Shown: piece after piece, positions 642-15,972 of the stretch
Numbering within the stretch: the first letter of the stretch is position 1
Layout: each line of letters starts with the position of its first letter
DNA from: a virus
Virus record (IMG/VR): IMGVR_UViG_3300049846_002010
Location: 1 to 38,844 of that record
Reading direction: 5' to 3' (one strand)
Length of the DNA: 38,844 nucleotides
Translations under genes and position numbers: made by a program
Notes under the pieces: model-generated
What the model saw: the letters and a program-made list of their open reading frames with translations, nothing else
What the model was told of the DNA's origin: nothing
The model's database searches: none

Positions 642-2491
642 GTTTCATCCTCTTCTATATGATCTTGCATCATCATTCTCAGCAAATCATAAGCGTACGG
701 CCTATCAGCATAGTAAGCTTGAACTGCCACGGGATTTGCTTGCATCAGAATGTTCATGTTCTGCATCCAAAACGGATCTCTCGGATATTGTAGCATAGGA
801 TCCAAAAGAGCTGCGGGATCTTCCATGAAAGCTTCTCGGATTTCGCCAACTTTGAGAAACTTGTCTGCAATAACTTGCCAACGTTCATTGAATGGAACCG
901 ATCCAGCAAGTCTTTCGCCGATAGGATTCTTGTCTACGTTACCGAGAACCTCGTCGTAAGTCATGTGCACAGGCATGTCCTGCTGCAAACGTAAGGATTC
1001 CTGTTCCCTGCTCTGCGCATCGAGACCGGAAAGCTGAATATAGCAAATCTGCGACAGCTCTGGATCAATAATTGGTAAAAGTTTTTCGTTGAAGAACGCC
1101 TGGAACTTCAAAATAAGTGGCCTTAGGCCAGTATCACGGGCAGCAGTGAGCTTGAACTCATTACTAGATTCGCTCAGTGTTTGCTGATTGGTTCCTCTCG
1201 ACAAGTGGCCATAGCCAGGAAGCTCGTCTGGAGAGATATTGAATGTAGAAAGGATATTTCTTGCGACTTGGTCGTACAGGAATTGGAATTCTCCATCGCC
1301 AGCACTGGAGACCATTGGCAGCCAGTTCACCTCGTCCTCTACACCCACACCGAACACTGGGGCTCGGAAGGAGTTGTTGACATTGTTGATAGAAGCCATG
1401 AAGTCTTGGCGGATCTTCTGAATCGTAGCCTGGTCAATCTCTTCAGATTTAACTACAAGGATACCCTTTGCGGCGCGACCATTCTGGAAATACAGTCGAT
1501 TGTACGCATCGATTGAAAGGTGAGTCGTAATAGAGCTGATACAGGTATCGATCGGAGTAACTGGGTATCCAGCATGTTCAATGTCGGTTGACGGGAACAT
1601 GTTGTACACGATAAGTTCATTCGGAGTAAAAGCTTGTACCGGAACCCCATCGATGTTTTGAACGTAAGCGTAGTTGTCAGCTTCAAGCGCTGCCAAATCA
1701 ATGTGAACGTTCTCGCCAGCCAACTCTTTCAGACGCTTGATAGAGCTGTTTCTGATGGATTGAGCGCCTGCCTCATTGTCTCGAATCACATTGTAAATCG
1801 TGCCAGCATCTACTGGTCGGAAAGAGTGGAACTCTCGGCGACGCTCTTGGCCTTCTTTTTGAGGTTCCAGCTCATCGTAAATAATTTCTGTAGCAAATCG
1901 ACCAAAAGAAAGACCGTTTCGAGCCTGTTGGTCCAAGAAGTCTGACAAGCTCATGTGCTCGTTTGGATCCAAGCCTTCATTGCTTCCACAGTTTAAGAGA
2001 ATCTTTTCTAGTCTTTCAATTCTCTCACGGATTTTAGACATTTGTTCAGGCTTAATGTATTGCTCAAACTCTGGCTTAATCTCAATTTCAAATCCGATGT
2101 CAAATCTATCTTTTCTCTTATGGCCATGCATAGCCATCGTGTTGCCGCGAGCGCGAAGAATTGACGCAACAAGGTGGTTCTGAACGCGAATGAGCTTGAT
2201 GACTTTATCTGGAAGAAGTCTTCGTTTGGTCTTAAAGATTCCAGAGTAGTCTGAGTTCTCGACGGGATCTTCGTAGAAAGCAAGCTTGACGCCTTCTTTC
2301 TTCTTTTGTTGTCCCGCAAAGATTGGGACATTTTTCATCATAGGAGATAGTGGGCCAGTGCTGCCGATCTCGGCCTTTTGTAATACGGTTTGTAGCTGTT
2401 CCTCTAAAGAAATAGCATCGCCACCAGCGTCCGTTAGGATCTGTCTTAGCGATTTTTGATCTGGCTTAGATGTACTGTTCTGATCAGACAT
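638..2491 (-). CDS. Phage portal protein
   Basis: At 617 residues this fits the portal protein, the dodecameric ring at the head vertex through which DNA is packaged and ejected. Supporting features are the long alpha/beta N-terminal wing, a central acidic and helical stem/clip-like region, and a segment around residues 415-450 (ISPDELPGYG, then SRGTNQQTLSESSNEFKL), a pattern typical of portal proteins just after the channel region. The C-terminus is Met-rich and acidic. It lies between terminase/structural genes upstream and an assembly-type protein downstream, as in many tailed phages. The start is ATG at 2491, one base after the preceding gene's stop. The function call rests on pattern and synteny rather than a catalytic motif. 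Confidence 0.8.
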   Translation of the reverse strand: MSDQNSTSKPDQKSLRQILTDAGGDAISLEEQLQTVLQKAEIGSTGPLSPMMKNVPIFAGQQKKKEGVKLAFYEDPVENSDYSGIFKTKRRLLPDKVIKLIRVQNHLVASILRARGNTMAMHGHKRKDRFDIGFEIEIKPEFEQYIKPEQMSKIRERIERLEKILLNCGSNEGLDPNEHMSLSDFLDQQARNGLSFGRFATEIIYDELEPQKEGQERRREFHSFRPVDAGTIYNVIRDNEAGAQSIRNSSIKRLKELAGENVHIDLAALEADNYAYVQNIDGVPVQAFTPNELIVYNMFPSTDIEHAGYPVTPIDTCISSITTHLSIDAYNRLYFQNGRAAKGILVVKSEEIDQATIQKIRQDFMASINNVNNSFRAPVFGVGVEDEVNWLPMVSSAGDGEFQFLYDQVARNILSTFNISPDELPGYGHLSRGTNQQTLSESSNEFKLTAARDTGLRPLILKFQAFFNEKLLPIIDPELSQICYIQLSGLDAQSREQESLRLQQDMPVHMTYDEVLGNVDKNPIGERLAGSVPFNERWQVIADKFLKVGEIREAFMEDPAALLDPMLQYPRDPFWMQNMNILMQANPVAVQAYYADRPYAYDLLRMMMQDHIEEDET

Positions 2492-2492
2492 A

Positions 2493-3440
2493 TTACTCTA
2501 CTGATGCAAAATAGACGGTTGCTGTGTCCAAACTATTGTTTGTTACAGAAAACGACCAAACTGTTTCGCTCTTTAGGAGCATTCCAGGCTTGACTTCGTT
2601 TCCCGACACAAGAGGCTCTACCTGTCCTTGTGATGCATCGTTCACACTTACAGCGAGCTTCTTATCTGATTCTAAGTATATCATCCTCTTGGCATCGCTG
2701 TAGATGTTGACAGAATCGGTCGTGATAGTTTCGGCTGGTAGGGATGAGGTCGAATAAAATTCAACCTGATTGTCTTGGGCAGCAGTGACTTCGTAGGATC
2801 CCTGAGTTGCTAAAGAGAAGCCTCCGAAAATATTGATCGTATCTCCCGCCTGAACTCCAGCAGCACTGTAGATTCTGACCTGATCAGCAAATCCAGAACC
2901 AAGGGTAACTGGGCCTTCAGCCGTACCATTAGCATTTTCCACGGAAAAGCTGGTAGCGTTTCTAGCGATTACGGTAAAGGTTCCCTGATTTCCAGAGGCA
3001 AACAGATTGCCCACATTGACTTTGTCGCCAACGACAACGCCGCCAGTAATCAGATCGAAAAGGGTGCCCACAGTGCTTTCGAAAGTTACGACGTTTCCAT
3101 TTTTCGTTACCGTAACCTGAGTCGTGGCATCAGCACCAGTACTTCGCGCAGTGCGAAACTGGGGAGCAGTGCCACCCACATGCTTCAGCACGTAGGTACT
3201 TGAGGTACCAGCTTTCAACGCGAGTTGATACTGTGTAGTGCCATCTTGAAGCAGGGTACGGGTTCCGTCAAATAGAGTCCGGCTTTCTCCTGGGGCTAAA
3301 GAAAATTGTAAGCTTTGAGGCTTCTCGACGCTCATCCCTTGAAAATCCCTAGCCCACTTGATCACATTCAGACTAGGATTGTTAGACGAATTGGCGTCTA
3401 GGTAACTATTTAAACTTAATAGAAAATTCATTTTTGCCAT
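2493..3440 (-). CDS. Beta-rich protein, candidate virion structural protein
   Basis: This 315-residue protein is rich in Gly, Thr, Val, Ser and Asn, has no cysteine, and looks largely beta-stranded. Two successive segments (about residues 137-185 and 196-240) share the pattern V/A-GD-K/T-x-N-I/V, followed by QG-x-(F/Y)-x-V and a hydrophobic strand, suggesting a duplicated small beta domain. Composition and position between terminase and portal fit a head decoration, neck or fibre-like virion component. I cannot name a family. The ATG at 3440 is preceded by a purine-rich GAAGAG stretch. An in-frame Met at residue 4 is an alternative start. Confidence 0.7.
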   Translation of the reverse strand: MAKMNFLLSLNSYLDANSSNNPSLNVIKWARDFQGMSVEKPQSLQFSLAPGESRTLFDGTRTLLQDGTTQYQLALKAGTSSTYVLKHVGGTAPQFRTARSTGADATTQVTVTKNGNVVTFESTVGTLFDLITGGVVVGDKVNVGNLFASGNQGTFTVIARNATSFSVENANGTAEGPVTLGSGFADQVRIYSAAGVQAGDTINIFGGFSLATQGSYEVTAAQDNQVEFYSTSSLPAETITTDSVNIYSDAKRMIYLESDKKLAVSVNDASQGQVEPLVSGNEVKPGMLLKSETVWSFSVTNNSLDTATVYFASVE

Positions 3441-3476
3441 ATTTCACTCTTCAGCTCCTACAATAAAGATTGCGGC

Positions 3477-5321
3477 TCAAACGTCCCAAACTAGCCCACC
3501 CTTCTTTTTAGTCGTTTCCTGAGGATTTGTGGTAGTATCTGTCACCCTATTCTTGATTTCTTGATGTAATTGCTCAGCCATTGTGGGCTGAACGCCTGGT
3601 TGTTGTGGCGGCGGATCACTTCCTAAAAGGATTTTACCTGAAGATTTTGGACCGTGAACGTTCTGGCCGATATATCGGAGCGCATCCATAACGTCTGCGA
3701 ATTCCTCATCGTCTGGGTGTTTTGTGGGATTTCCAGCATTGTCCAGTTTGAAGTGGTGGACCTTAAACCCTTGAACTAACTTGCGATTTTCTTCTGTATC
3801 CAGGACCAAAAGTCTTCTACGGCCCATCGTGTCCACGATTTGCGACCGAATGGCCTCGATACCACCTAAAACGTCTTTGGTGAACTCTGGGCCTTTCATT
3901 CCAGCCTTGGTGAAAGTTTTGATGTTGGCAGGGGAAGCGTTGTCGTAGAACCATTTCGAGATCTCATACTTTTCCTGGAATCTCAAGCCTACCATTTTGA
4001 AGTCGTGGATTTCTAATCCAGGGCTCCCAAAAGTCTCGACGATAAAACTGTATCCAGACGCAGTCACGGCCATGACTACGATAGTGGCTTCATGAGTATA
4101 TCCCCAGTCAACACCAGCGTAAAACTTGGCTCCGAGACGCTTCAATGTCTGAATAAATTGCTCAAGTGTAGCCTTGACGGCCTTTTCCCCAGTAATTAGT
4201 TCGTACGCCTGATCGATACTGACCACGTTCTTTTGAGCGTCAAATCTAGGATAGACCAGTCCTTTCGAAGATGGCTTCCAGCACATCAACTGAGCTTCGG
4301 CCATGTCGGGGCTCACTTTTTTGAAAGACTTCAGGACCGCAGCAATCGGCTTGTGTAGGTTCTTTGTAGAAGTTACTGGCTTGTCCGCAAGCCGTGTCTT
4401 ACAGACAGGGAGGAGCTTACAATCTAAGCATCCAGGATGTGCTTTGACAAACTCCCATTCGCCGTGCTCTTGCGGCGGAAGTGCGGCGTATTCTTCTGGG
4501 CTTATTGTTCTTAGGGGTAATTTTTTCGATACGTAAGCATCAACCCTGGACTTATCGGGATTCGGCTTGTGTCTGGTCTCTGGACATTTTTCTGCGATGT
4601 CTATGATGTTCCAGCGCAAGATCTTTTCGCCAGTCTCTTTCGCTTCATTCAGCTCTTTTTCCATGAGTCCGAACGCGAACTTTCTAGTAGACAGCTTCAC
4701 TGTGATGGAATAGCGACCGCGCTCCATACCAGGAATCAGTTTCGATTCTTCGTACGCAACAGGGTCTCTAATAACGTCGATCTCATCTACAAACATCAAA
4801 TTCGTATGGTCTCCGTTTGCGCCAGCCATCGAACAGATAACCACCACGATGTACGGACGATTGCCTTCGGGAGTTTCAAACTCCAACTGAGTCTTGGATT
4901 CAGAAACCTGTTTCCACTTATTGAATTCGATGTACGGCTTCAGTTTGGCCAAGAAGCCAGTGATGTAGGAAACGGCTTTATTGGACTGCTTCATGATAGC
5001 AGCCATGTGAGAGATGGTTACTTGGAAATGCAGGAGAAGCAAGACTTCAAGCATAGCTGCGGAGAGCGTTTTGTACGCCTCACGAGCTGAGAGCATGATG
5101 AATCCGTCGATCTCATCTCCCTTATTGTCCCTGACAGCCTCATAGATCTGCCACATAGCATCCAGAGGGTTTGAGTTAGAATCAGGGTCAATAGTATCCC
5201 CGACCACCTCGATATTGAGATAGCCACGAAACCAATCTCGCATCTGTTCTCTGTTGTCTAGAACTTTTAGAAGATGCTGACCTTTTAATCTTTCCTCTGG
5301 CTTATCGAAATCTACCGTCAT
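3477..5321 (-). CDS. terL: Terminase large subunit (packaging ATPase-nuclease)
   Basis: TerL powers DNA packaging into the prohead and cuts concatemers. At 614 residues it has the two-domain plan. The ATPase has a Walker A-like SAREAYKT (about 78-85) and Walker B NLMFVDEID (about 174-182). The RNase H-like nuclease has acidic positions at GVDWGY (about D405), LLVLDTEEN, and DEEFADVMDALRY near the C-terminus. The P-loop is unusual: the usual Gly before Lys is Tyr. Between the domains sits a Cys cluster (C298, C301, C307, with C246 and C346 nearby) that could bind zinc. The gene starts 3 bases after the chaperonin stop and lies upstream of the portal. Small subunit not adjacent. Confidence 0.9.
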   Translation of the reverse strand: MTVDFDKPEERLKGQHLLKVLDNREQMRDWFRGYLNIEVVGDTIDPDSNSNPLDAMWQIYEAVRDNKGDEIDGFIMLSAREAYKTLSAAMLEVLLLLHFQVTISHMAAIMKQSNKAVSYITGFLAKLKPYIEFNKWKQVSESKTQLEFETPEGNRPYIVVVICSMAGANGDHTNLMFVDEIDVIRDPVAYEESKLIPGMERGRYSITVKLSTRKFAFGLMEKELNEAKETGEKILRWNIIDIAEKCPETRHKPNPDKSRVDAYVSKKLPLRTISPEEYAALPPQEHGEWEFVKAHPGCLDCKLLPVCKTRLADKPVTSTKNLHKPIAAVLKSFKKVSPDMAEAQLMCWKPSSKGLVYPRFDAQKNVVSIDQAYELITGEKAVKATLEQFIQTLKRLGAKFYAGVDWGYTHEATIVVMAVTASGYSFIVETFGSPGLEIHDFKMVGLRFQEKYEISKWFYDNASPANIKTFTKAGMKGPEFTKDVLGGIEAIRSQIVDTMGRRRLLVLDTEENRKLVQGFKVHHFKLDNAGNPTKHPDDEEFADVMDALRYIGQNVHGPKSSGKILLGSDPPPQQPGVQPTMAEQLHQEIKNRVTDTTTNPQETTKKKGGLVWDV

Positions 5322-8645: not shown

Positions 8646-9682
8646 GTGAAAAAAGCAACCCCAACTATTTTGACAACAGTTTGTACACACTTGCTGACGA
8701 ACTAACCAGAGCTATTACGAATAATGAAGATGGTACCGACCAAAAGAAACAGGTCGAGAAGCTCATGGCTCTAGAGAAAAGCTTCAAGAATTCTATTCTG
8801 AAGTACAAGCAGGCAAACGAGATTTATAGAAAATTCATACTTTTGGTTGTTGTGCAAAATCGCAACATCCTTTCGGCCCGACCCTATTTCCGTGAGAAAG
8901 CGGACGTTTTTAGTTCCAAGATTACCCCTGCCATTAAGGACGGGAAGGTGAGAGTCCTTCAGAAGTTCCACATCAACTACTTGTTGATCAAGTTTGTCAA
9001 GGATAATTGGGTCGGGCCATTTCCTGAAAAATCATTGAAATTCTTTGACGCTTTGGTTGAAGCTAGGCGCAAGCTAATCGAAAATAACATGCCCTTGGCT
9101 ATCAATCGAGCAAAACTCTTCTTCAGAAAGGTGCCTCGAAACCATGTCTCTCTGATGGACATGATTGGTATCGCCGCTATGGGACTCATCTCTGGCGTAG
9201 ATAAGTGGGTTGGAGATTACAGCCCAGTCTTTAGAAGCGTATGTATTGGCAGAATGGGAGGAAACTTGATTGAAAGTTACTCCGAGACAATGCTGCACTT
9301 TTACCCATCCGATCGCCACATCCTGTACCGAGCAAATTCGATTGCGTATAGGCAAGATCTTCAAGATTTTGATGAGCTTGCTGAAGCCATCAATAAAAGC
9401 TTTGCCCAAGACAAGATAGATGGAAAGAAAACGAATTTTAAAAATATTTCAGGCTCAGAGTTGGCGTCCCTAATGAAAGCCGCATCCACGATGAGCACAA
9501 GCCTTCCTATGGATCAGGATAATGTTACCGTAGAGCTGCACGAAATGCAGGACGTAGACTCCAGCGTAGACCTGGAAGAAGAGATCATTCGTAGGGATTC
9601 CATGAACAACATGATAGTGTCCGCGCTTTCTTTGCCGCTGATGCATCAAAAAGTTCTTCGATTGAAAGGAGTAAAAATATGA
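8642..9682 (+). CDS. Sigma-70-family-like factor lacking region 4
   Basis: Probable RNA polymerase sigma factor of 346 residues. Residues about 145-235 match sigma region 2 in pattern: LIENNMPLAINRAKLFF, then VSLMDMIGIAAMGLISGVDKW, then RSVCIGRMGGNLIES. Residues about 290-340 match the region 3/4 boundary: SLPMDQDN, an acidic stretch, EEEIIRRDSM and LPLMHQKVLRLKG. The protein ends where the region 4.2 helix-turn-helix (the -35 reader) should start, and the next gene begins immediately, in another frame and with its own identity. It may act like T4 gp55, which also lacks region 4 and serves late promoters with co-activators. The N-terminal about 140 residues are of unknown function. It overlaps its neighbours at both ends by ATGA. 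Confidence 0.7.
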   Translation: MSEKSNPNYFDNSLYTLADELTRAITNNEDGTDQKKQVEKLMALEKSFKNSILKYKQANEIYRKFILLVVVQNRNILSARPYFREKADVFSSKITPAIKDGKVRVLQKFHINYLLIKFVKDNWVGPFPEKSLKFFDALVEARRKLIENNMPLAINRAKLFFRKVPRNHVSLMDMIGIAAMGLISGVDKWVGDYSPVFRSVCIGRMGGNLIESYSETMLHFYPSDRHILYRANSIAYRQDLQDFDELAEAINKSFAQDKIDGKKTNFKNISGSELASLMKAASTMSTSLPMDQDNVTVELHEMQDVDSSVDLEEEIIRRDSMNNMIVSALSLPLMHQKVLRLKGVKI

Positions 9683-10023
9683 AACTAGGCATTCTCAGTT
9701 TTAATGATACACTTATTTTGGAACCATACCAACAAGGTCAGGGATTGAAGGAAGAGGTCCGAAGTGGATTTGCCTTCGTAAAGCAAAAATCTGAGCTTTT
9801 TGGTCTGAAAGTCTTAGTTGAAGCCAAGCTTTCCGATGGAACGTACATCCCTGCTGGGTCAACCGCGTACATTTCAGAAGAGCTTCTTTCAAGCCAACAG
9901 TGGGCCAAAAATGCAAAAACCTGCGCCGCTCTTGGGGAACAAAAATTCATCCTTGTTGAGATGAAGTACGTAAACATGATTGATCCAAATGAATTTGTTG
10001 TTGACTCAAAACAAGGTGTTTGA
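9679..10023 (+). CDS. GroES-like co-chaperonin (gp31-type)
   Basis: This 114-residue protein has the overall pattern of the Cpn10 fold. An opening strand (NDTLILEPYQ) is followed by a flexible loop with SGFAFVKQ (mobile-loop position, about 24-36). Then come GLKVLVEAKLSDGTYIPAGSTAYI, equivalent to the GroES barrel strands with Gly turns, and a final FILVEMKYVNMI matching the last strand pair. T4 gp31 is a similarly diverged co-chaperonin of 111 residues. The presence of a phage GroEL at 5325-7094 strengthens the call. The start overlaps the sigma gene by ATGA. The call is by pattern only and identity to GroES is low. Confidence 0.62.
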   Translation: MKLGILSFNDTLILEPYQQGQGLKEEVRSGFAFVKQKSELFGLKVLVEAKLSDGTYIPAGSTAYISEELLSSQQWAKNAKTCAALGEQKFILVEMKYVNMIDPNEFVVDSKQGV

Positions 10024-10035
10024 TAGGGTTGGTCA

Positions 10036-11700
10036 GTGGCTAAAACTCTCGCTTTCGATTTTGTCAAAAGCTTTATAGAGCAAGAGGGGTATTCTCTTTT
10101 AGAGAATTCTTATAAAAATTCTATATCCCAAATGACCTTGGAATGCCCTGTAGGTCATGTTTTTCCAATGTCCTGGAAAGTATTTTCTAAGGGGCATAGG
10201 TGTAGCTACTGCGCCGGGAAAAGACAATACACCACAGAAGAAGTGGCCAAAATTCTAAAGGAAGAATTTAATTACACTCTTCTTTCAGATACCTATAGCT
10301 CAAATAAGCAAAAGCTACTAGTTCGCGGCCCAGATGGGGTCGAATACGAGACTACTTTTTTTGCTATAAAAGTTAACAAAATTCTACCGCACAACAAAGG
10401 CATGCTTAAATCGGAAGAGGAGTGTCGAGCTATCTTTGAAAAGATTACAAACAAGACATTTCCTCACAGCAAACCCTCTTGGCTCGTAAATCCTGAGACC
10501 GGGAAACATATGGAATTGGACGGTTACTGTCAAGAGCTAAAGTTGGCTTTCGAATTTGATGGAAGGTATCATTTTAAAAACAAAAACAAAGATGATACTG
10601 AAAAAAATTTTTATAGGGACAGAATTAAGGATCGCCTGTGTAAGAAAAATGGAATAAGACTCATCAGGATTCCACACTATATCGTTGATAAAAATAGATT
10701 TATAGAAAATGAAATTTTTAGGCCAGGAAACTTTCTGTATATCGGCGATCCGCACGTTCAACCGGACAGTATTTCCGAATATAAGAAAATTTTTGAGTGG
10801 GTAGCGGAGGAGGCTAAGAAAAGCGGTACGAACAACATAGTCCTACTTGGAGATTTATTTCATAACCACAACGTAATTCGTATGGAAGTAGGTCACTTTT
10901 GGAGATCAGTATTTCAAAAACTTTTAAAACAATTTAGATTGCACGTTTTGATTGGAAATCACGACATGATTCTGGGGAGTCATGAGAATTCTGAAATGAG
11001 TGCTCTAGATAGCCTCAAAAGCAAGTACACATATACGCTCAACATAGCGGACGCGCCATACTCCTATGGTCCCCTAGGCTTTATGTCTTACCAACAAGAT
11101 CAAGAGCTATTCAAGAAACATGTTAATTTTTTCAATTCGATGGGCATAAAAACAATTGTATGCCATCAAGACTTTGATGGGGCTCAATACGAAAATGGAT
11201 TCTATTCCCCGCACGGCATAAAGCTGGAAGATGTGAATGCAGAACTCATAATTAGTGGTCATATTCACAAACGACAAAGGTTTGGGAAGCTCATCCTGCC
11301 GGGAACCCCTCGTTGGATGACATCTTCTGATGCGAACGAGGATAAGGGCATTTGGCTTGTCACTCACGACATGGACACTGGTTCAATCCTATCTGAAAGG
11401 TTCCTGCCTACTTCTGACATATTGGAACCTTTAGTCTCAATAGAGATAGCGGAAGGTGAAGACATATCCAAGATCAAGATGGGCAATAAAACTCACATCA
11501 AGCTTGTCGGCTCCAGCGCTTGGATCGCAAAGACCGCCAAGGCACTAAGAGGCAAGGCCAGGGTATCCGCTAAGCCTACTGATACAAGATTTTCAGGAGA
11601 ACCAAAACAACTCTCGTCTCTGGAATCATATGCTGTCCAGTTCAAATTTGAAGATGCTTCCAAAGAAGAAGTTCTTGACTACATTAGGAGTATCCAATGA
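10036..11700 (+). CDS. Fusion: homing-type (Vsr/EDxHD-like) endonuclease domain + SbcD/Mre11 nuclease
   Basis: This 554-residue chimera has two parts. Residues 1-225 look like a mobile endonuclease module: a treble-clef-like zinc finger (C37, H41, C57, C60), a second similar segment, then a PD-(D/E)XK/Vsr-like core with ELDGY, FEFDGRYHF (E173, D175, H179), RDRIKDRLC and GIRLIRIPH. From about residue 233 it is a T4 gp47/SbcD metallophosphoesterase: GDPH (237-240), GDLFHNH (272-278), GNHD (307-310), CHQDF and SGHIHKR. The latter is the nuclease partner of SbcC/Rad50 at 13921. I see no in-frame stop or good internal start at the junction, so translation gives one chain from GTG 10036. The first part looks richer in A+T than its neighbours, consistent with acquisition. 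Confidence 0.82.
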   Translation: MAKTLAFDFVKSFIEQEGYSLLENSYKNSISQMTLECPVGHVFPMSWKVFSKGHRCSYCAGKRQYTTEEVAKILKEEFNYTLLSDTYSSNKQKLLVRGPDGVEYETTFFAIKVNKILPHNKGMLKSEEECRAIFEKITNKTFPHSKPSWLVNPETGKHMELDGYCQELKLAFEFDGRYHFKNKNKDDTEKNFYRDRIKDRLCKKNGIRLIRIPHYIVDKNRFIENEIFRPGNFLYIGDPHVQPDSISEYKKIFEWVAEEAKKSGTNNIVLLGDLFHNHNVIRMEVGHFWRSVFQKLLKQFRLHVLIGNHDMILGSHENSEMSALDSLKSKYTYTLNIADAPYSYGPLGFMSYQQDQELFKKHVNFFNSMGIKTIVCHQDFDGAQYENGFYSPHGIKLEDVNAELIISGHIHKRQRFGKLILPGTPRWMTSSDANEDKGIWLVTHDMDTGSILSERFLPTSDILEPLVSIEIAEGEDISKIKMGNKTHIKLVGSSAWIAKTAKALRGKARVSAKPTDTRFSGEPKQLSSLESYAVQFKFEDASKEEVLDYIRSIQ

Positions 11701-12041
11701 GCAAAAAATCACTGACCAAAGAACTTGCGATGGGCTCCATCCTTACCGGACAGATCTCGGAAGTTCACATCAAAAATATGAAGATGTACCCATTCATTTT
11801 TCTTGACGATGTCAGTCAGGCAGAGATCGCTTATGATATTATTACTGATACGATCAATGTGACGCCTGGAAAGAAGTCCACCGTATCTTATACGCTGGGC
11901 TTCAAGGGCACCAAACCGAGCAAAGAAGTGCTGAAGCCAGGGTTTGACAATCTTCAAAAGGCCCTTTCTGTGCTTTTTTCTCAGAAAATTACCCTGATTT
12001 TGAGAGATCAATCGGGACAAGATTTGATGGAAAGAGAATGA
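11697..12041 (+). CDS. Conserved-type hypothetical protein
   Basis: Unrecognised 114-residue protein. It appears alpha/beta, with a beta-rich centre (residues about 20-75, YPFIFLDDVSQAEIAYDI and VSYTLGFKG) and a helical C-terminal third. There are no cysteines, signal peptide or obvious catalytic motif. It overlaps the SbcD-fusion stop and the next gene's start by ATGA, so it is coupled within the recombination/protease cluster. Confidence 0.65.
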   Translation: MSKKSLTKELAMGSILTGQISEVHIKNMKMYPFIFLDDVSQAEIAYDIITDTINVTPGKKSTVSYTLGFKGTKPSKEVLKPGFDNLQKALSVLFSQKITLILRDQSGQDLMERE

Positions 12042-12670
12042 GCGACCAAAACCTTCCAGCTACAGTTGAAGAGTTTCCTCAAGATTTTTCGCAGTCTGAA
12101 AAAGACCTACTTAAAAGCTTCAAGGAGAGCGGAATGCCTGGTATTAGCTCTGTCTCCCATGAGATGGAGCAAAAGCTTCTTGCTTTGTACATGGAAGGTA
12201 ATACCTATGAGCACATTGCAAATAAAACCAGGCAAAAGAAGGTGTACATTCTGGCCCTTTCTCACAAATATAAGTGGTTTGATAAGAAACTAGGCGAAGT
12301 TTCTGCGCTGGCGGACTCACTGTCTGGCAAAAAAGACATCTTTTTTCTGCAAAATGAGCAGTTCACGATGAGTCTAAGTGATAGTATTAGAGAATACTGT
12401 TCTGCGAAAATTAAACAATTTGCAGATAGTAAGGATCCAGCAGTACTTGAGTCTCTCGATCATAAATTAGTCGGGCTGTACTTTAAGTGTCTGGAAAATC
12501 TTCCTGGCAATGGCGCTGGAAAGAAAACTGATGAAAAGAACATTCCCCAAACGCTCGTTAATGTTCAAGGGGATTTAAAGGTAGGAGATGACAGCAAGTC
12601 AAATTCTACCGATTTAGGTCAAGTACTAAAGGCGTTAGCTGACCTCAATAGGGCAAAAGACATAAAATAA
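12038..12670 (+). CDS. Helix-turn-helix protein; possible small terminase subunit
   Basis: This 210-residue protein has a helix-turn-helix-like segment at about residues 48-75 (KLLALYMEGNTYEHIANKTR then KKVYILALSHKYKW). The same layout is common at the N-terminus of small terminase subunits and in sigma-like or transposase-like DNA-binding proteins. A helical middle (80-150) and a polar tail with a short beta segment (PQTLVNVQGDLKVGD) follow, which also fits a small terminase. Against it, the gene is on the opposite strand to terL and 6.7 kb away. Treat as a DNA-binding protein of unknown role. It is overlapped by ATGA with the preceding gene. Confidence 0.6.
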   Translation: MSDQNLPATVEEFPQDFSQSEKDLLKSFKESGMPGISSVSHEMEQKLLALYMEGNTYEHIANKTRQKKVYILALSHKYKWFDKKLGEVSALADSLSGKKDIFFLQNEQFTMSLSDSIREYCSAKIKQFADSKDPAVLESLDHKLVGLYFKCLENLPGNGAGKKTDEKNIPQTLVNVQGDLKVGDDSKSNSTDLGQVLKALADLNRAKDIK

Positions 12671-13660: not shown

Positions 13661-13921
13661 ATGCCGCTTATCAGGTACACATGCACAGACACAAAATGTG
13701 GTGAAGTTACCTCTAAGCTTTTTAGGTCTAGTCCCCAAATAGCAGATGAATTGCCCTGTAAGAAATGCGGGAGTAAGGCAAAAAGAACCTTGTCTTCTCC
13801 CGCATCTTCGTCTAAGATAACCATAGACAATGGGCTCCAAGCAAGAGCAGTAGAGGTAGATCCCAATATCATGGAGATCAACTCAGAAAGAGCCAGAAAA
13901 CCAGAAGACAGGGGAGAGTGA
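13661..13921 (+). CDS. Small FmdB-like zinc-ribbon protein
   Basis: This 86-residue protein begins MPLIRYTC and has two cysteine pairs, C-x4-C near residue 8 and C-x2-C (PCKKCGSKAKR) near 38, as in the FmdB-type putative regulatory zinc ribbon. The C-terminal half is polar and probably disordered. It starts 3 bases after the protease stop without a clear ribosome site, suggesting coupled translation, and its stop overlaps the SbcC start (TGATG). Role unknown; nucleic-acid or protein binding is likely. Confidence 0.7.
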   Translation: MPLIRYTCTDTKCGEVTSKLFRSSPQIADELPCKKCGSKAKRTLSSPASSSKITIDNGLQARAVEVDPNIMEINSERARKPEDRGE

Positions 13922-15972
13922 TGATCAAGGTAAAAAAGATTCGAATCGAAAACCTTGGTCGCTTTGTCGGCTCTCACATTATTGATTTTGAATCCAAGTC
14001 AAACTTCATCCAAGTTGACGCTGAGAACAGGAACACTGGCGGGTCTAGCGGCGGAGGCAAAAGCTCCATATTCCTAGCTCTAGAATACGTTCTTGGGCTT
14101 AATGATGTTCCGTCTACTGTTCTACAATCCAGACTCACAAAGTCATCGATGTCGGTGGAAGCAGAAATTGACAAAGACGGTCAATCTTTTACCATTTCTA
14201 GGAACAAGTCTGGTGGACTTTCGATTTCCAGCTCAAGCCTCAACGTCTCTGGAAGCACTAAGGAGGCTGAGGATACTTTAGACCGTATTCTAGGCATCCC
14301 AAGAAGCCTTCTCAGGCCCATGTTTCACAAGCGTCAAGGGGAAGGTGGCTTCTTTCTATCCAAGACTCCAAAGCAATCCCACGATTTCCTTATGGAATGT
14401 CTGGGAATGAATTCCCTTGAAGAAAAAATCTCAAAAATCGAAAGCAGGCTAAAGGTGGTCGAGCAAGTTTTGACTACCAAGAAGTCCGAGTTATCTGCTC
14501 AAAAGATTGCCCTAGAATCGACCGAGGCGCTGATCCAATCGCTTGCTCCGCCAAAGTGCGACATTGACGAGCGAGTCCTGATTACGCTTATGGATCGGAT
14601 CAATTTTGTAAAACAGCAAAAAGACTTATCGGTTAAAGAGATGGAGACTAAGATCCAAAGTACTGGGGAAGTGCCTTCGTTTTCCTATATGGAAGATTCC
14701 AGACTCACAGAGGCGATCGCAGGCTCACAAAGAAACGCACAGATTTTGTTTTCAAAGATTACCGAAGCAAGCAATATTGCCTCAAGCCTATCGTCATCTA
14801 TCCGCTCCGATCAAAACAATGCGGACCTAATGGTCAGAGCGATTTCTGGTAAGGGCGATATTGAAAAGGAATTGGAAGAGCTGAAAGTCCAGATTACAGA
14901 GGCGATGAAGAAGATTTGCCCTACCTGCAAACAAGGATTACATACTGACCATCTTAGCCAATCAGTAGCTACACCGCTAATCGCAAAAGCTCAGAAAAGG
15001 AAAGCCGAACTCGACGCCATCGCTGTTATGGAAGAAAAACTTCCAACAGTCCAGGAAGCTATCGTGGCCAACCAAAATGCCCTTGCGGATCTAGAAAAGG
15101 GCAAGCTCGAATTGGAAGCCAAACTGACCAAAGAGAAGAATGATCTGGCGATCTTGACCAGCGCCAGAGATACGGCCAAAGACAAGGCGATGCTGGAGTA
15201 TAAAGCCATAGTGGACATGATCAATCAGAGCAAAAAGAAAATTATTGACGATTATACTCCAATTCTCAATCAGCTCGAAGCACAGTTGGACGCCTACAAT
15301 CAAGCCTACTATAAAGGCCAAGCAAACCTTAAGTCGTTCCAAGAATCGCTGGCTCGATACGAAGTTCAAAAGAAAACATCGGAAGCTCAGCTCGGTTCGC
15401 TCAAAGAGTCTGTATCGTCCGCTGGGACAGAAGTTGACAGGCTTACAAAGGAATTTTCCGTAGGAAGTGCCTCGCTCAAGTTCGTAAAGAGCTACGCAAA
15501 CCAATTGTTCCAAGAATCGTTGGTCATTGTGGCCGATACGGCTACAAAGATACTGTCAAGAATCCCAAACATGAACACCGCGACCATCACCTTTGACGCT
15601 TACAAGGAAACTAAGTCGGGTGCTTTGAAAGAAGAGGTTGTTGCGATTTTATCTCTTGACGATGAGGTGAATGTTCCTGTAAAATCTATGAGTGGTGGCG
15701 AGAGAGCTGCTGTAGACTTAGCGGTCGATTTGGCTGTGATCGATATGATTGAAGCTAGGACTGGAAATGGGCTAGACCTGTTCGTCTTAGATGAGCCGTT
15801 CGATGGGCTGGACGCTATCTGTAGGGAGAATTGTTTGGAGGTGTTGAGAAATCACGCTTCAAACAGAAAAATTGTCATTGTGGACCACTCCACAGAGACA
15901 AAGCAGATGGTGCAAGATAAAATTTTGATCGTCAGAGAAGGTCAAACGAGTAGAGTGGATGATAGCATGTAG
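13921..15972 (+). CDS. SbcC/Rad50-like ATPase (T4 gp46-like)
   Basis: SMC-like ATPase that pairs with the SbcD/Mre11 nuclease to process DNA ends for recombination-dependent replication. The 683-residue protein has the N-terminal Walker A GSSGGGKSS (about residue 45), flanking coiled coils, the zinc-hook KICPTCKQ (about 332-339) at the coil apex, the ABC signature MSGGERAAVDLA and Walker B LFVLDEPFDGLD near the C-terminus, then a His-switch region (IVDHS). All parts are intact. ATG 13921 (TGATG overlap with the zinc-ribbon stop) is preferred to GTG 13918. The partner nuclease is four genes upstream rather than adjacent. Confidence 0.93.
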   Translation: MIKVKKIRIENLGRFVGSHIIDFESKSNFIQVDAENRNTGGSSGGGKSSIFLALEYVLGLNDVPSTVLQSRLTKSSMSVEAEIDKDGQSFTISRNKSGGLSISSSSLNVSGSTKEAEDTLDRILGIPRSLLRPMFHKRQGEGGFFLSKTPKQSHDFLMECLGMNSLEEKISKIESRLKVVEQVLTTKKSELSAQKIALESTEALIQSLAPPKCDIDERVLITLMDRINFVKQQKDLSVKEMETKIQSTGEVPSFSYMEDSRLTEAIAGSQRNAQILFSKITEASNIASSLSSSIRSDQNNADLMVRAISGKGDIEKELEELKVQITEAMKKICPTCKQGLHTDHLSQSVATPLIAKAQKRKAELDAIAVMEEKLPTVQEAIVANQNALADLEKGKLELEAKLTKEKNDLAILTSARDTAKDKAMLEYKAIVDMINQSKKKIIDDYTPILNQLEAQLDAYNQAYYKGQANLKSFQESLARYEVQKKTSEAQLGSLKESVSSAGTEVDRLTKEFSVGSASLKFVKSYANQLFQESLVIVADTATKILSRIPNMNTATITFDAYKETKSGALKEEVVAILSLDDEVNVPVKSMSGGERAAVDLAVDLAVIDMIEARTGNGLDLFVLDEPFDGLDAICRENCLEVLRNHASNRKIVIVDHSTETKQMVQDKILIVREGQTSRVDDSM

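Follow-up and report, generated by a model that had tools for sequence, protein, structure and literature searches.

A Vsr/EDxHD-type endonuclease fused in frame to phage SbcD, a probable homing element at the 5' end of sbcD

The window studied here is the whole of a 38,844-base virus record. On its (+) strand, positions 10036 to 11700 form one uninterrupted reading frame of 554 amino acids, which begins with GTG at 10036 and is closed by a TGA ending at 11700, and in which PHROG and Pfam matches place a homing endonuclease (residues 1-228) ahead of an SbcD (residues 232-554). A domain search with the two halves gave a clean split at residues 1-231 / 232-554, and the AlphaFold2 model of the fusion, for which the input alignment held 64 sequences (the window and viral loci), reached a mean pLDDT of 90.4 over the entire chain. 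The upstream neighbour is a small GroES-like protein (9679..10023, +), named on resemblance and without a Pfam or PHROG match, the gene of which likewise lies upstream of sbcD in the loci L002, L005, L094 and L099. The gene order helicase, sigma-like, GroES-like, sbcD, two small genes, ClpP-like and sbcC is largely common to fused and unfused relatives. The window also encodes a full-length phage GroEL (5325-7094; PHROG 5725, E 1.5e-86), divergent from the helicase-sigma-sbcD block and adjoining the terminase and portal genes; at another locus (L183, 2944-5600), a free-standing relative of the endonuclease is found directly upstream of a phage groEL that resembles that of the window.

Residues 1-231 match PHROG 559 ('HNH endonuclease', E 7e-33) and several homing-endonuclease families, but the fold, according to structure alignment, is of the Vsr/EDxHD type and not the HNH of the PHROG label. 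The nuclease domain proper (10399..10719, +; residues 122-228) carries conserved D162, E173, D175, H179, D195 and K198; across 40 homologues (alignment A6), D162, E173, H179 and D195 are invariant and D175 nearly so. Using VIA-align, the domain could be aligned with Vsr (1cw0; Z 10.5, 103 residues, 2.6 A) and, taken as residues 122-234, with I-Bth0305I (3r3p; Z 9.4, 93 residues, 3.4 A). For the endonuclease half, Foldseek alone returned nothing with E below 0.001 and phmmer gave no useful match among PDB sequences. Single-sequence searches of viral contigs recovered nothing, so that an alignment-based scan was needed; when the endonuclease alignment was run against bacterial and archaeal genomes, only eight distant relatives (27-38%) were retrieved. 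Two DNA-binding repeats precede the nuclease. Repeat 1 (10054..10215, +) is a CapR-like zinc repeat with ligands C37, H41, C56 and C59; its match to Pfam CapR is weak (E 0.02-0.04, under the family cut-off), its zinc ligands are conserved, and the relative L182 gives clear matches to CapR and DUF4379. Repeat 2 (10234..10395, +) has the same predicted fold, with an identical order of secondary structures in the AlphaFold2 models, and has lost the zinc ligands (alignment A6). By predicted structure and conserved residues, the N-terminal half is assigned to the Vsr/EDxHD homing-endonuclease fold group. The initial annotation of this DNA had described a treble clef followed by a Vsr/EDxHD-like domain, and both the fold and the ligands C37 and H41 stand, while the remaining two ligands are C56 and C59 and not C57 and C60.

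The SbcD phosphoesterase occupies 10729..11697 (+), with every metal-site motif intact. Residues 232-554 match PHROG 100 (SbcD, E 1.6e-29) and Pfam Metallophos (E 3e-11), and the motifs D7, GD41-42, GNHD76-79, H146 and GHxH177-180 (numbering of the SbcD half) are invariant in alignment A2. The best Foldseek match of this half is 7yzo, the E. coli SbcCD (E 1e-13), and 4lty is also matched (E 1e-12). The partner ATPase SbcC is encoded at 13918..15972 (+; PHROG 77, E 1.6e-44; Pfam SbcC_Walker_B). With its metallophosphoesterase motifs, its Mre11 fold and an SbcC nearby, the C-terminal half is a genuine SbcD.

The two halves meet at 10720..10737 (+), RPGN-FLYIGDPH, where the end of the endonuclease passes into strand 1 of SbcD without a linker: in the AlphaFold2 model the final endonuclease helix (219-228) is followed almost immediately by the strand at 232-236. 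Unfused SbcD proteins begin M-K-x-L-x-x-G-D-P-H and the fusion reads G-N-F-L-Y-I-G-D-P-H, which means that only the first two residues of SbcD have been replaced (GN for MK). The start of SbcD had earlier been set at residue 233, which is nearly right; the SbcD core that follows is complete as described, and the start falls at N232-F233. In none of the six fused ORFs known to us (the window and the five contigs described below) does an in-frame ATG, GTG or TTG occur between 40 codons upstream and 39 codons downstream of the SbcD start, which bears out the earlier claim of a single frame with neither stop nor internal start at the junction. The sole candidate start in the junction region of the window is a CTG at 10735, and none of ATG, GTG, TTG and CTG occurs close to where SbcD begins in the other five ORFs, all of which keep the frame. 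SbcD would therefore be made from the endonuclease start only, unusual starts such as CTG 10735 aside. Two possible remnants of an sbcD start were also considered: MAKTLAF (residues 1-7) was rejected, as endonuclease homologues open in the same way (MPKRFTY...VK), and a frame only some 30 codons long starts from the out-of-frame ATG that the junction contains (ATGAAATTTTTAGG).

Alignment-based scans of IMG/VR recovered five further contigs, from other metagenomes, that carry this fusion, joined at the identical SbcD residue (SbcD loci L094-L098, identical to endonuclease loci L015-L019), in which the open frame reaches 234 codons upstream of L-Y-V-G-D-P-H. These represent 5 of the 78 SbcD loci whose 5' end is visible; unfused loci of this set have a start codon 2-9 codons ahead of the motif, with the exception of L166, which has no standard in-frame start codon there. 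The endonuclease half is thus not a general extension of SbcD; the initial annotation had named such an extension as one of two findings that would speak against its proposal. Carriers of the fusion belong to two lineages only.

The endonuclease half of the window is 56-59% identical to those of the five fused contigs, with 58-59% in local alignment, above all its neighbours (helicase 48-50%, sigma 38%, GroES-like 37%, SbcD 38-41%, SbcC 47-50%). Compared with the endonuclease-free loci L099 and L100, the window shows 57-59% identity in sigma, 52% in SbcC and 42% in SbcD, the last being only slightly nearer. In the sigma and SbcD trees the window joins L099/L100 (97/94 and 97/97), as it does in a tree of concatenated neighbours (helicase, sigma, GroES-like and 12038-12670; 100/99), which rejects a single fused clade (AU p 4.6e-49). 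Sigma alone also rejects such a clade (AU p 0.0005), and the result for the whole of SbcD is marginal (AU p 0.065). These comparisons show that the endonuclease was transferred horizontally, against the phage tree. In the unfused relative L002, a GIY-YIG-like ORF (2-634) is present close to the helicase gene, and between the GroES-like gene and sbcD lies a dCMP-deaminase-like gene (3522-3995), both named by resemblance; the junction thus also accepts other cargo.

The first part of sbcD appears to have travelled with the endonuclease. Partitioned trees place the window with the fused clade for SbcD residues 1-85 (96/90) and reject this grouping for residues 86-321 (p 0.0025), the cut at residue 85 having been picked after viewing identity bins. 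According to site log-likelihoods, the best breakpoint falls after SbcD residue 110 (prefix permutation p 0.005) and the best segment is 27-110 (p 0.03); residues 1-20 alone are slightly nearer L099. We infer a co-converted stretch of fused-clade ancestry at 10735..11064 (+), corresponding to the first ~85-110 codons of sbcD. This event of the window itself would be old, and its trace is weaker and less sharp than that of a second event, seen between L094 and L098. These two contigs are 93-99% identical in nucleotides from the endonuclease start codon to about position 3500, a block of about 1.2 kb that comprises the endonuclease and ~0.5-0.6 kb of sbcD, against 33-86% outside the block (63-76% in the GroES-like gene, 64-77% in sbcD past the block). 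Correspondingly, the endonuclease has a dS of 0.09 and a dN/dS of about 0.13; dS is about 0.14-0.21 over the first 160 sbcD codons and 1.1-2.3 in the neighbours. The block records a recent event and has the footprint expected of double-strand-break homing with co-conversion, as known for T4 elements (PMC2988022). Its abrupt 5' edge would fit a repair junction near the endonuclease start, and one-sided, microhomology-type junctions have been reported in T4 (PMC2988022). Ordinary recombination with hitchhiking could also produce a mosaic of this kind, but a block that begins at the endonuclease start codon is hard to account for in that way.

Endonucleases are found at the same place in other phages. 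In the Bacillus phages Bobb and BvP, an unfused endonuclease ends with a stop codon immediately adjoining the sbcD ATG. A relic of the original sbcD start (MTKIVHF; MANKVVHFT) survives on the upstream side of this endonuclease, and the start of sbcD itself is recoded, VTFS for VHFT, by comparison with the endonuclease-free BSTP3 and Goe27 (relic and recoded start at L008 1434-1475 and 2380-2410, and at L007 1394-1420 and 2380-2410). This arrangement matches what an insertion at the first metal-binding motif of SbcD would leave, with the 5' end rebuilt in altered form, and the recoded start is as would be expected of a rebuilt end that resists cleavage. A common origin of the Bobb/BvP and window endonucleases was considered and is unsupported, the two belonging, with moderate support, to different subfamilies. 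At L220, a free-standing endonuclease of the wider family (2353-3300) ends about 20 bases before an sbcD/gp47-like gene (3324-4367; PHROG 100, E 7.6e-72). Taken together, the window-type fusions, Bobb/BvP and L220 make the 5' end of sbcD a recurrent site, where phages that are only distantly related have evidently been struck by two or more endonuclease subfamilies; the window and the five contigs have gone one step beyond this, to fusion.

From these comparisons of sequences, we consider it highly probable that the N-terminal half is an active or recently active homing element, unspliced and expressed as an in-frame fusion with SbcD. The suggestion that a selfish nuclease had inserted at the 5' end of sbcD and been kept in the protein thus finds support in the comparative evidence, and mobility, which goes beyond that suggestion, is shown by the conflict between neighbour and SbcD trees and by the co-conversion tract. 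The endonuclease gene, placed at the exact start of sbcD, would supply the sole ribosome-binding site and start codon and would be translated as the N-terminal domain of SbcD, so that the invaded host gene would stay functional, with one chain presumably active as both enzymes. On meeting a phage with an empty sbcD, the endonuclease would cut this gene near its 5' end, the exact target being presumed, and resection followed by donor-templated repair would carry over the endonuclease along with the initial ~0.3-0.6 kb of sbcD. As this places the 3' crossover within sbcD, the frame would be kept at every homing and splicing would be unneeded, and the cost to the phage would be merely an extra N-terminal domain on SbcD.

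A different fate for the same domain would be domestication, in which it was captured once, lost homing and now serves SbcCD as a DNA-binding, nicking or targeting module. The strong purifying selection (dN/dS 0.13), the tight linker-less junction, predicted with high confidence, and the lost zinc ligands of repeat 2 would suit such a role, and L196 (see below), where a nuclease with a changed active site is joined to TerL, shows that domains of this kind can be kept. We nevertheless judge domestication unlikely: movement is shown both by the 93-99% block that two otherwise dissimilar phages share and by the disagreement with the phage tree, no part of the nuclease core is missing, and 73 of the 78 SbcD loci whose 5' end is visible lack the domain. 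A new nicking or targeting activity for SbcCD had been the second suggestion of the initial annotation, and nothing in these comparisons speaks in its favour. It is very improbable that a free-standing endonuclease is followed by a separate SbcD, the two frames abutting by chance and SbcD starting from the unusual CTG at 10735 behind AGGAAA: the sequence AGGAAACTTT-CTG does resemble a ribosome-binding site with its spacing, and the abutting genes of Bobb and BvP offer a parallel, but the other five fused ORFs keep the frame without any such codon, and a start at this CTG, the fourth residue of strand 1, would shorten the strand.

An intein or group I intron, which would be spliced out, is the usual home of homing endonucleases (PMC3943268); here, this is scarcely credible, since nothing in the window scores as high as the gathering cut-off of any Rfam family, the Pfam results contain no intein domain, and no SbcD segment lies N-terminal to the endonuclease as a flanking extein, hence there is nothing to splice to. 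Mis-assembly or a sequencing frameshift might be suspected in a record that is a metagenomic contig, and has almost no chance of being the explanation when five independent contigs from other metagenomes, with SbcD sequences only 38-41% identical to that of the window, share the same junction and frame; this also rules out the frameshift or mis-assembly that the initial annotation had named as its other refuting finding.

The proposed unspliced homing element shares features with several known systems. With I-Bth0305I and the EDxHD enzymes it has in common the nuclease fold, the conserved acidic/His active-site pattern and an attached modular DNA-binding domain, and its sporadic presence and horizontal movement into one site are those of EDxHD homing endonucleases; unlike I-Bth0305I, described among intron-encoded enzymes (PMC3943268), it has CapR-like DNA-binding repeats and no intron, and its frame runs into the target gene. 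Repeated zinc DNA-binding domains and a gene at a boundary of genetic exchange recall the CapR-domain homing endonucleases of phage ICP1 and its relatives (PMC10448857), which however have a T5orf172 nuclease, whereas that of the window is Vsr-like and fused to a replication/repair gene. Like SegG and MobE of T4 (PMC2988022) and the Bobb/BvP enzymes, it adjoins a conserved replication/repair gene, uses host-gene signals and has a co-converted flank; those enzymes are free-standing, with their own stops, whereas in the window type stop and downstream start are lacking and the frame is open into SbcD in 6/6 cases, giving one protein. The yeast WHO elements also home without splicing into an essential gene, part of which is replaced each time while the gene survives (PMC7282813), and the recoded sbcD start of Bobb/BvP is especially similar to the way in which WHO rebuilds the FBA1 3' end (PMC7282813). 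WHO elements are separately transcribed, intein-derived with a zinc finger, and located downstream of FBA1, the 3' end of which is replaced (PMC7282813); the window element, by contrast, is Vsr-like (EDxHD-type), upstream at the sbcD 5' end and translationally fused. As with inteins, the insertion is coding, in frame and leaves the host reading frame unbroken, but it has no intein profile match or splicing domain, is N-terminal and, as far as can be read from the DNA, would remain in the mature protein.

It is the self-splicing of introns and inteins that allows homing endonucleases to survive within genes. In the window and its fused relatives, an element with neither apparently still spreads while attached to a protein. 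Whether this amounts to a further class of homing elements, in which the endonuclease becomes the unspliced N-terminal domain of its target gene and the SbcD tether may raise homing efficiency, is a tentative idea that we hold to be possible but somewhat doubtful. As sbcD encodes an Mre11-type end-processing nuclease, the cutter may be tethered to a break-resecting machine. The SbcCD homologue of T4 is formed by gp46 and gp47. In T4 intron homing, phage exonucleases, 'possibly gp46, gp47', are involved (PMC2988022). In the open-access literature searched, no phage homing endonuclease translated within its target protein was found, and novelty is therefore provisional. Such a fusion would offer a simple route from selfish nucleases to domains of repair proteins, and one polypeptide that may combine DNA cutting with end processing would make a clean test system.

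Two other arrangements with Vsr-like nucleases were seen. At L196 (2998-4812), a terminase large subunit carries such a nuclease, of the same wider family as that of the window, as an in-frame N-terminal fusion; the DNA-binding repeats are missing and one presumed catalytic Asp is replaced by Gln (EYQG for EYDG), and no second nuclease-TerL fusion of this type was found. At L053 (1208-2806), weak intein-splicing and LAGLIDADG matches precede a Vsr-like nuclease domain in one ORF, which may be what is left of an intein whose endonuclease was exchanged.
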